The notes under the pieces: model-generated | Seen by the model: the letters and a program-made list of their open reading frames with translations, nothing else | Databases searched by the model: none | What the model was told of the DNA's origin: nothing | In this document: positions 10,355 through 39,224 of the stretch, one piece after another | How positions within the stretch are numbered: position 1 is the stretch's first letter | How the letters are laid out: each line of letters begins with the position of its first letter | Position numbers and translations under genes: made by a program | NCBI GenBank assembly: GCA_902728285.1 | Contig: CACVBU010000142.1 | Location: forward strand, 372,001 to 436,000 | Source: Clytia hemisphaerica | Lineage: Eukaryota > Cnidaria > Hydrozoa > Leptothecata > Clytiidae | DNA length: 64,000 nucleotides | Direction of reading: 5' to 3'

Positions 10355-13300
10355 ATGGATGACCCTGATGTTGGAGAACCGCCTGGTGATCCAGTTGCAA
10401 CTGCTAAAGTTGAAGATGTAATAAAGTATCTTAAAAATGTATCGAGCACTGTTTTTGAAGAAGACAATCAAAGTGTCCCTCTGGGCCAGGTAATAGTCTA
10501 AGATTATTTAGTCTTGTATGTACATACCTGTGATGAATTTTATTTATCATCTTTCGGGGCTGAATTTATGATGATACTTACATCCTGAGGTAATGCGACA
10601 CTGAACTGCACTGAAAGGTTTTTTATCAAATAAGGGAATTACACACACTTTTTATGATTCAACCCTATTCTGCAGGCATTTGAGAATGGTAAAGACTTGA
10701 TCAGCAAGTTCATCACTGACACTCAACTCAAGTCTATTCTGGTTTGCCAAACAACAAGTCTTGTTGAGGAAGATGGGGGATCTGCTGATAACCTTAAAAC
10801 CAAAATTGAGTACAGTATACAAAGTGCAGTCAACTACACATCTCAAAAAGATAACACTATTGCCTTCATCAAACGTGGAATGGTCATTGAGGGTGACAAG
10901 AAGACCTACAAGCAAGTTCAAATGATCAACTTGGAAAATGCTGCTCCATTTGACACCCTCCATTCATATGTCAGCAATGCGGTTTCACCATTCTTTAAAA
11001 GCTATGTCAAGAAATCAGGCAAATCTGATAGAGAAGGTGATAAGATGGTACCTTCAGTTGAGAAGAAAATTGCTGAACTGGAAATGAGTCTTCTTCACCT
11101 CCAGCAGAATATTGACATCCCAGAAATTTCCTTGGTTATCCACCCTCATGTGCAAGCACTTTTAAAGAAAGCTGAGAGTGAAAAGAGAAAAGTTGATTCT
11201 GAGGATTTTGCTGACAAACTTGAGGACAGTACCTTCCTAAATGCACTTCAAAATGGTGTCAATAGATGGATTCGAGAAATTCAGAAGGTAAACCGTAGTT
11301 AATGGCACTTATTTTTCAAAAGGATCTCTAGTGGTGATGATGTTTTAGTATGATGTATTCATTTACATTATGATTAATTATTATATACGCTAATCTGAGC
11401 TAGAATTACAGGTTTTTTAACATTTTTATGGAGCTTAATCTTCTATAACATATTTTGAATTTTAAATTTTAGGTCACTAAATTAGAACGAGATCCTGCCT
11501 CTGGTAATGCCCTTCAAGAAATCAGCTTTTGGTTGAACCTTGAGAAAGCCCTCCATAGAATTGAGGAGAAGCAACAAAGTCCTGAAGTCAAACTCACCCT
11601 TGATATTTTAAAGCACTCGAAACGTTTCCATGCCATTGTCAGCTTTACAAATGATACAGGTAAACTAGAAAACCAAACATTCAAGAATTATTTTATAACC
11701 TTACACTAAATGAGCTTCACAATTTTTCTGCTAAACCAACAATTTCACAAGCTTTAGATTAACCAAATCTGAACATTTTGCACCTCTATTTAGGTTTGAA
11801 ACAGGGTTTGGCTACTGTTGCTGCTTACAATCCACTCATGAAGGATTTTCCATTAGAACAACTTCTTTCTGCCACTGAATTGGATAGAATCAAGGAAGCA
11901 TTAACTGTTATCTTCAATCACATAAGGAAGATCAAATTGTCTCAATATCCAATCACAAGATGTTTGAAGCTGATTGAAGCAATTTCAAGAGATTTGATGT
12001 CCCAGGTTCTGAAAGTTTTAGGGACAAGAAAATTAATGTTGATGAATTATGATGAATTTGAAAAGGTAATAATTTGAAACATTCATTTTGTATTTAACAA
12101 TGTTCTCTTTGATGATCTAACTTATCATCTTTCGGGGCTGATAACTGATGTCAATTTGGAAACTGAGAGAACTTGATTTATATGTAAATTGTTCCCAGTA
12201 TTTGATAATCATTTGGCTATATTAACTCCTCTCTTCTCAAAAGGTTATGGTCAGTACCTTTAGTGTGTTTGCTACATGGGATGATGAATATGATAAGACT
12301 CAACAAATTCTTCGAGAATTAGCAAAGAAGAAGCGTGATGATAGTTTCAAGACTATGTGGAGGATAAATCCTGCCCATAAAAAGTTGCAGGCAAGAATAG
12401 ACGTCCTAAAGAAGTAAGTCATTGTTGAACAGTCTAAAACTATGATTATAAATGTTTATTTCCTTTTTCAACCAAAACGTTAAAGGGAACGACGCATGGT
12501 ATATTTATGAAATGCTGATCTAGCATTGGCACAAACATCCATACGGAGGAGTATTTAGGAGTGCTGGATCATAACAAAAACCAAAAGTGACTTTATTCCA
12601 AAAAAGTGAATATAATTTACTATAATGTTCAACAACAACACAAAAAGACTTACATAAAATTTTTTGAATGAAATCGAGTGTTTCTATTTTTAAATGTAGA
12701 CATTCTATTGTGAATTTATTCGAAAACTTCTTTGCAATCTTTTTGCTTACATTTTGTCTTCATTCACTTTCGTTTAATGTTGAAAACATAACAAAGTTTT
12801 AGCTATACTCTTAAACCGCGTATAACTGTCGGTTAAGCCTATCAGCTTTCGGGCTGACGTCAGCATGTATTTCAGAGTATACCATGGAAGTGCCACCAAA
12901 TCCGACCCCTACTATAAGTAAAGCGCTATAGCCTTTAATCATGTTACTGCTTTTGCTCACAGAATTACCAAAGGTTTTTTGCAATGTTTGTAAACTGTTA
13001 CATTTTCTTTGTACTTATTATAGATTTCGAAAGCAACATGAACAATTGAGGGCTGTTATTCTCAGAGTTTTGAGACCAACAGACAAGCCTGCTCTGACAG
13101 ACGGCAGTGTGAAAGGTGATGCTGAAATGATGGACATGGCTGATGCAAATGCTGCCCAAGAGGTTGATATGGCTTATGAAAACTTCAAAGATGTGGATCC
13201 TCTTGATATTTCAAAGGAAGGAGTTGATTCATGGGAAAATGCATTCAAGAGGTTTGTATCATTCTCACATGTGTCTGATCAAGAAAAGACATTATCATTT

Positions 13301-39224: not shown

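Follow-up and report, generated by a model that had tools for sequence, protein, structure and literature searches.

The described systems closest to the locus considered here are host genes that carry many small nucleolar RNAs (snoRNAs). The heaviest such comparator that we met in the literature is Uhg1 of Drosophila, which is non-coding and hosts 16 snoRNAs; five positions are reported to be targeted by Uhg1 alone (PMC4430873). For snoRNAs of the C/D class, passages of two further papers give an optimum of about 70 nucleotides (nt) before the 3' splice site (PMC8178906) and a location about 50 nt before the branch point that is aided by AQR/IBP160 (PMC8162545). The present locus is the gene of the cytoplasmic dynein 1 heavy chain of the hydrozoan Clytia hemisphaerica, on a window of 64,000 nt (GenBank assembly GCA_902728285.1, contig CACVBU010000142.1, positions 372,001 to 436,000, forward strand) to which all coordinates below refer. 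The ribosomal RNA (rRNA) and comparison loci were taken from the same genome (417 Mb, 951 contigs), in which the window is C105:372001-436000.

The sequence of this gene leads us to regard it, with a probability of roughly 0.9, as a multi-intronic snoRNA host, from whose introns C/D and H/ACA particles would be processed to modify rRNA. The individual elements very probably are real guide snoRNA genes processed from the dynein introns. The kind of arrangement is known; the host and its load are unusual.

The dynein gene and its intronic elements

The gene model was produced with a splice-aware chaining script and then corrected by eye. A 746-residue piece of the product scores 1308 bits against cytoplasmic dynein 1 heavy chain and 1055 bits against 3vkg, which we take to be a Dictyostelium-type cytoplasmic dynein, as compared with 522 bits for the best chain not named cytoplasmic and 494 for dynein 2. 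The same piece matches the Pfam families DHC_N2 and AAA_6, and the N-terminal 249 residues match no Pfam family at 1e-5. An AAA1 probe finds a >90% match in the genome at this locus only, the other listed matches reaching 65% at most. Thus the earlier note on this DNA, which had proposed a dynein heavy chain gene with 42 introns, is borne out on the identity of the host. Dynein 1 is expected to be broadly expressed. An acceptor-like CTCTAG stands immediately 5' of the ATG and hints at an intron in the 5' untranslated region.

The C/D candidates were assembled from places found with Rfam, from repeat families and by reading of the introns; they fall into guide families designated F1 to F12. The host and its elements are listed here with expectation values (E) of Rfam matches; 28S positions are those of the animal's own sequence, and 18S positions are human.

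10355..39224, +: cytoplasmic dynein 1 heavy chain host gene, ATG at 10355, stop at 39224, 43 exons and 42 introns
10530..10588, +: C/D F1, intron 1; predicted D' guide to 28S G971 (taken as human Gm1522, yeast Gm805); SNORD96 model, E 1.5e-4
11334..11398, +: C/D F2, intron 2; predicted D guide to 18S G644 (U54 type); snoU54, E 0.23
12109..12166, +: C/D F1, second copy, intron 4; Rfam match and guide
13327..13420, +: C/D F3 (U15 type), intron 6; predicted guides to 28S A3592 (Am3764) and G3599 (yeast Gm2288); 19-bp terminal stem; SNORD15, E 3.1e-7
14169..14262, +: C/D F3, second copy, intron 6; Rfam match and repeat family
15264..15320, +: C/D F4, intron 8; predicted D guide to 18S A468
15710..15777, +: C/D F5, intron 9; predicted D' guide to 28S C3648 (Cm3820, the U74 site); Rfam match
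15856..15919, +: C/D F5, second copy, intron 9 (9b); degenerate C box CTGATGG
16267..16322, +: C/D F4, second copy, intron 10; guide pattern
16531..16726, +: H/ACA of SNORA74/snR191 type, intron 11; Rfam E 2.6e-15; pockets fit 28S U3569 and U3571
18313..18372, +: C/D F4, third copy, intron 14; guide pattern
18943..19003, +: C/D-like F6, intron 15; predicted guides to 28S A1409 (taken as Am2350) and U2775; boxes degenerate (C ATGATTA, D ATGA)
20882..20939, +: C/D F7, intron 18; predicted D guide to 18S U1442; SNORD61, E 0.13
22525..22585, +: C/D-like F6, second copy, intron 19; degenerate boxes as in intron 15 (ATGATTA, ATGA)
23045..23103, +: C/D F8, intron 20; predicted D' guide to 18S U627; snoR77Y, E 3.2e-6
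23479..23602, +: second H/ACA-like element, tentative, intron 21; from the folding scan alone, unmatched in Rfam
24110..24166, +: C/D F7, second copy, intron 22; SNORD61, E 0.016
25792..25850, +: C/D-like F6, third copy, intron 24; D box CTGA, C box poor (GATGATA)
26200..26259, +: C/D F9, intron 25; predicted D' guide to 28S A973 (taken as human Am1524, yeast Am807); snoMe28S-Am982, E 0.02
26749..26808, +: C/D F8, second copy, intron 26; guide pattern
27496..27559, +: C/D F10 (U43 type), intron 27; predicted guide to 18S C1703
28011..28070, +: C/D F8, third copy, intron 28; guide
28566..28625, +: C/D F10, second copy, intron 29; SNORD43, E 0.098
28986..29045, +: C/D F10, third copy, intron 29; SNORD43, E 0.008
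33446..33502, +: C/D F11, intron 34; predicted guides to 28S A1312 and A3567 (Am3739); weak C box ATGAAGA (ATGATGA on a second contig, C477)
35513..35569, +: C/D F11, intron 38, copy a; guide
35617..35671, +: C/D F11, intron 38, copy b; D guide altered
36807..36863, +: C/D F11, intron 40; guide
37197..37262, +: C/D F12, intron 41; predicted D guide to 18S U1326; SNORD33, E 0.0027; C box may be TTGATGA, 3 bases earlier
38790..38846, +: C/D F11, intron 42; guide

The count of 28 C/D candidates in 24 of the 42 introns, all on the coding strand, is thus reproduced; with the H/ACA element of intron 11, the model has 25 host introns. The earlier description of about 30 snoRNAs holds for copies, of which there are 28 C/D and one H/ACA, but not for different snoRNAs, since the C/D copies make up only 12 guide families of one to five copies each, with 15 predicted rRNA sites.

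Two H/ACA elements had been claimed, and the one in intron 11 stands: it scores 51.9 bits with the snR191 model (cut-off 46), its hairpin-hinge-hairpin-ACA fold scores with that family, and it reaches 68.5 bits with SNORA74, just under that cut-off of 71. Matches of 5-6 bases lie on both arms of both predicted pockets, at 28S U3569 and U3571. The second, in intron 21, is unconfirmed. It comes from a folding scan that flagged four sense introns (6, 9, 21 and 36) and one antisense intron (30), and that scan is weak, because it did not recover the Rfam-recognised H/ACA element of intron 11; intron 21 is kept as a tentative second H/ACA candidate and the other flagged introns are not kept.

A strict box-and-stem scan that takes no account of rRNA finds 18 candidates in the sense introns, none antisense and four in exons. 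In 100 dinucleotide shuffles of the introns, the control that the earlier note had proposed, the mean is 1.27 and the maximum four, far fewer than in the real introns; the remaining 35 kb of the window yield three per strand. Requiring an exact C box leaves 11 in the sense introns, none antisense and none in exons, as against 0.17 in shuffles (at most two) and, in the other 35 kb, none on the + strand and one on the - strand. Of the 18, fourteen coincide with final intervals; in one more the C box is shifted by 3 bases, and the last three are different box pairs that overlap a final interval. Other dynein genes behave differently: 12 of their loci (38.5 kb, with two pairs overlapping in one gene and one match consequently counted twice) give seven sense and four antisense matches when one mismatch is allowed and none with an exact C box, whereas the same scan of the whole dynein 1 span (28.9 kb) gives 23 sense and two antisense, and 11 and none with the exact box. 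With Rfam, ten other dynein loci (32 kb) return one snoRNA match, at E 7.3.

A covariance-model search, also proposed earlier, was made with Rfam. At E<=10, the interval 9500-40000 has 51 Rfam matches, of which 49 are of snoRNA or small Cajal body-specific RNA (scaRNA) type, all on the + strand, and two are microRNA models on the - strand; at curated cut-offs the whole window holds a single match, snR191 at 16531-16726. Collapsed by hand, the 51 make 23 places, 21 of them intronic and 11 with E<=0.05, which cover 20 of the 28 C/D candidates. The two places in exons (13124 and 24412) were dropped. Positions 1-9500 were searched at curated cut-offs only, and 40000-64000 contain five matches, three of snoRNA/scaRNA type, the best at E 0.38.

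Predicted rRNA targets and splicing geometry

The 28S target is the animal's own sequence, taken in two parts from contig C797. That copy (loci L004 and L015) is split at CTCTTAAGG/TAGCC, which we take to be the R2 retrotransposon site, with the parts 3970 bases apart and the 3' part diverged; an Rfam match suggests another insertion further upstream in the same copy. The 18S of this species was found in short pieces only, not intact, and for this reason a human 18S sequence, assumed to be correct, served as target.

Fit to conserved rRNA segments, claimed for the antisense elements from the start, is borne out. A Watson-Crick run to rRNA of at least 10 is present in 18 of the 28 copies (nine of 12 by family; the copies are related, and the 28 tests are not independent events), compared with a mean of 1.1 and a maximum of eight for 200 shuffled rRNAs, three of 28 for reverse-complemented rRNA and one of 28 for reversed rRNA. 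None of the 49 intronic CTGA motifs outside the snoRNAs reaches a 10-base run. Runs of at least 9 occur in 26 of 28 copies (shuffled rRNA: mean 4.5, maximum 14), intron 27 being counted by its D box only; F10 pairs by way of a CAGA-type D' box that lies outside the guide scan and was checked separately.

The predicted positions, each the nucleotide paired fifth from the D or D' box (N+5), can be set beside known ones. Those in 18S, computed by script on the human sequence, equal published numbers. In 28S the spacings agree with published ones: G971 and A973 are 2 apart, as are Gm1522 and Am1524; A3567, A3592 and C3648 follow one another at 25 and 56, as do Am3739, Am3764 and Cm3820; and G3599 comes 7 after A3592, as yeast Gm2288 does after Am2281. 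The published sites, according to passages of PMC11542601, PMC3511168 and PMC8817022, are human Am468, Um627, Gm644, Um1326, Um1442 and Cm1703 in 18S and, in 28S, human Gm1522, Am1524, Am2350, Am3739, Am3764 and Cm3820 and yeast Gm2288. By comparison with these passages, we equate 13 of the 15 predicted sites with known human or yeast 2'-O-methylations.

The second line of evidence is the placement of the elements within their introns. In 19 of the 24 introns with C/D snoRNAs, the nearest one lies 70-90 nt from the 3' splice site (random placement gives 4.3, with a maximum of 12 in 10,000 trials); in the remaining five (6, 9, 19, 29 and 42) the distance is 103-237 nt. As judged from the gene model, this is the spacing known for splicing-coupled C/D assembly. 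Intron length is also steady: 18 of the 24 C/D host introns are 172-197 nt long, with 35-54 nt before the snoRNA and 74-103 nt after it, as against one of the 18 introns that lack a C/D snoRNA. Where different introns share repeats that include snoRNAs, these are for the most part limited to snoRNA bodies and short flanks, and therefore whole introns have not been duplicated as cassettes.

A mechanism that would accommodate these facts runs as follows. The dynein pre-mRNA would be spliced, with C/D core proteins assembling on each snoRNA while its intron is held in the spliceosome, in most cases at 74-90 nt from the 3' splice site; the lariat would then be opened and trimmed to the ends of the small nucleolar ribonucleoprotein (snoRNP). 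The C/D particles would guide 2'-O-methylation of 18S and 28S rRNA, the H/ACA particle of intron 11 would guide two neighbouring 28S pseudouridines, and local duplications of the snoRNA unit would have multiplied the copies within the gene. What we see directly is the sequence, the boxes, the N+5 complementarity, the spacing, the strand and the constraint between two contigs; transcription of the locus, snoRNA processing and rRNA modification are what we infer. The splicing geometry makes it reasonable to suppose that snoRNA output would be coupled to dynein transcription.

Weighing the copies: other hosts, constraint and alternatives

How far the same guides are encoded elsewhere in the genome bears on what the load may mean. 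BLAST with 12 representatives returned only this gene and contig C477, a lower bound, as few candidates were scored and copies on contig C928 were missed. Exact guide-plus-box patterns, applied to four of the 12 families, were found assembly-wide in the dynein gene only for F7 (two matches), F4 (three) and F1 (two); the F8 pattern, which misses the intron-28 copy and hence undercounts, has two matches in dynein and five on C928. There (locus L065), the snoRNAs that follow an exon of ubiquitin, recognized by eye, lie on one strand and within 3 kb: five are of F8, two of U15 type and one of U14, with a distance of about 143 nt between some of the copies. Exclusivity of all the dynein guides is ruled out by these F3-type and F8 copies. 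Eight housekeeping loci were also scanned (EF1A twice, three HSC70-like, RPS3, RPL3 and RPS8). Convincing snoRNAs occur in RPS8 only (contig C628, locus L058: SNORD46 at E 5e-5, a SNORD52-like element at 0.05 and SNORA53 at 1e-4, all below cut-offs), and the other seven give no snoRNA match better than E 3. SNORD46 is hosted by RPS8 in human too, and this is perhaps a long-kept host relation. It follows from the RPS8 and ubiquitin snoRNAs that the genome has ordinary hosts too and that multi-copy clusters are not peculiar to dynein. The generalization that intronic snoRNAs sit one per intron in ribosomal or translation genes fits RPS8 as a host; it is weakened by there being only one host among the eight housekeeping loci and by the eight copies in 3 kb at the ubiquitin locus. 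A search of the genome with Rfam RF01263 found nothing even though the window holds a match, so family searches are insensitive in this genome.

Contig C477 (80,015 bases), which ends within the gene, probably represents the other allele and allows a look at constraint. Compared over nine of the 28 copies, the contigs differ at one of 529 positions in snoRNA bodies and at 63 of 3594 in the rest of the intron sequence (Fisher P 0.0015); the one body difference falls in the C box of intron 34, which is weak here and canonical on C477. Copies of one family all agree at 248 of 269 columns in boxes and guides and at 215 of 407 columns elsewhere, in a test that is partly circular, the guides having been picked by their rRNA match. 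Intron 30 contains about 1.55 kb of diverged internal repeats (29556-31110) that are missing from C477, probably a heterozygous insertion or deletion.

Several observations, to which the reach and circularity of these two comparisons belong, pull against the reading of the gene as a snoRNA host or temper it. Just one element, snR191 in intron 11, exceeds a curated Rfam cut-off, and relaxing the limit to E<=10 still leaves eight of the 28 C/D candidates unmatched. The C box RTGATGA is exact in 18 copies, has one mismatch in eight and more in two, so that ten of 28 lack an exact box and two (introns 9b and 24) are off by at least two bases; the D box is CTGA in 26, and the copies of introns 15 and 19 carry ATGA. 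Terminal stems of at least 4 bp are found in 17 of 28 (random: 5.7, maximum 14 in 2000 trials) and are absent from 11; such a stem is not always needed at an optimal intron position. The 18S target is a human sequence presumed correct, and the F10 target string occurs in it twice, at C1703 and at 728. Human numbers are assigned to the 28S sites by sequence context, presumably reliable, together with spacing, and to A1409 by such context alone. Two predicted sites, A1312 and U2775, do not appear in the literature passages compared. Further 9-base matches that lack support, such as those made by the D guides in introns 4 and 27, were not counted as sites. Finally, the F8 guide and U15-type snoRNAs are shared with the ubiquitin locus, and the D guide of the RPS8 SNORD46 is that of F11.

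The alternative that fares best concedes that the snoRNAs are real and holds the load to be mostly spare: one or two working copies per family, the rest decaying local duplicates that drift has kept, and no meaningful link between dynein and ribosome production. Its chances fall only somewhat short of even. The reduction of 28 copies to 12 families speaks for it, as do the degenerate boxes in introns 9b, 15, 19, 24 and 34 and the presence of F3-type and F8 snoRNAs beside a ubiquitin exon and of SNORD46 in RPS8; passages in the literature also favour drift among broadly expressed hosts and duplication of C/D snoRNAs in cis (PMC3511168, PMC8178906). Yet boxes and guides are kept in most copies while the linkers diverge, the only body difference between contigs has the canonical C box on C477, and the 3' spacing is kept in 19 of 24 host introns.

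At the other extreme, the dynein 1 gene would be a principal guide-RNA operon in its lineage, the only source of several conserved methylation guides, with introns standardized by selection around the snoRNA and dynein output tied to ribosome modification in every cell. The suggestion of an only source arises because the exact F1, F4 and F7 patterns occur nowhere else in the assembly. Taken as a whole, this larger claim, made from the sequence, is doubtful. The earlier proposal that a sizeable share of the rRNA methylation guides comes from this gene is fair, but the share is smaller than 30 snoRNAs would imply: 12 families and 15 predicted sites, with some of the guides encoded elsewhere as well.

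That the snoRNAs are instead made from intronic promoters of their own, independently of dynein splicing, is improbable. Introns 6, 9, 19, 29 and 42, with 103-237 nt between the nearest snoRNA and the 3' splice site, would suit such a scheme; placement on the coding strand throughout would not, and a spacing of 74-90 nt in 19 of 24 introns would be needless without splicing.

An assembly artefact, in which misjoined or duplicated sequence placed snoRNAs in dynein, is more improbable still. As assembled, the reading frame has single-base shifts (read by eye) in exons 14 (18025-18267), 23 (24244-24794) and 26 (26338-26707), and the comparison with C477 reveals two further single-base-type gaps in exons; these frame breaks and gaps do suggest indel errors. 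On the other side, 18 of the 19 exon substitutions between the contigs fall on third codon positions in an otherwise conserved gene, and for this reason the frame breaks are read as probable assembly indel errors in a working dynein gene. The exon order recurs on the separate contig C477, together with the last nine C/D copies (98.4-99.6% identity), and a misjoin is rejected on the strength of this shared arrangement. A further alternative is that AT-rich introns contain box-like motifs by chance and match rRNA only loosely; the shortness of C/D boxes and the weak Rfam scores of many copies might be adduced for it. It is rejected by the strict-scan shuffles, the antisense and rRNA-run controls, the other dynein loci and the match of 13 of 15 predicted sites to published methylations, and can safely be set aside.

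Just 3' of the dynein gene, at 39275-39399, there is a hairpin-like sequence with a microRNA precursor model match on the - strand, far below cut-off, possibly a mobile-element hairpin. Further on, an open frame of 972 codons from stop to stop (41385-44303) resembles by eye a long interspersed nuclear element endonuclease and reverse transcriptase, and another (47361-47963) resembles part of a HECT ubiquitin ligase domain.

Comparison with known hosts

If the gene is a snoRNA host in the sense proposed here, heavy snoRNA hosting would reach beyond translation genes to a large gene for a motor protein. The locus would then offer a natural test of good-host features (intron number, broad expression, splice-site geometry) against co-expression matched by function, and in its steady intron lengths one could read the mark of snoRNP assembly coupled to splicing. 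As far as we have looked, we know of no such snoRNP-assembly map for this genome. Should several of the guides be without another source, a mutation in a motor gene, or a change in its splicing, would alter how ribosomes are modified. Titles and the beginnings of abstracts on snoRNAs and dynein heavy chain or DYNC1H1 describe no such host and no such load, in a coverage that leaves out most subscription journals. To our knowledge, no protein-coding host has a higher snoRNA load.

The H/ACA element of intron 11 is like SNORA74/snR191 in having two pockets for two neighbouring 28S uridines and in scoring above the snR191 cut-off; it differs in its dynein host and in a score just below the SNORA74 cut-off. 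With the ubiquitin-start locus the dynein gene shares a series of snoRNAs on one strand, multi-copy U15-type, U14 and F8 snoRNAs in the former case, following the first ubiquitin exon. The ubiquitin locus differs in packing eight of them into 3 kb; the dynein gene has mostly one per intron, at a steady spacing. The likeness to Uhg1 and other UHG/SNHG genes is that many guides would reside on one transcript, and the difference is that Uhg1 is a dedicated non-coding gene, whereas the exons of dynein code for a conserved protein some 4600 residues long. The nearest relatives are the multi-intronic protein-coding hosts, such as RPS8 with SNORD46: these too have sense snoRNAs in separate introns, C/D copies of the same family in one host and the snoRNA placed some 70-80 nt before the 3' splice site. 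What sets the present locus apart from them is that the host is a motor-protein gene, not a ribosomal or translation gene, and that it carries 28 C/D candidates of 12 families together with one H/ACA element.

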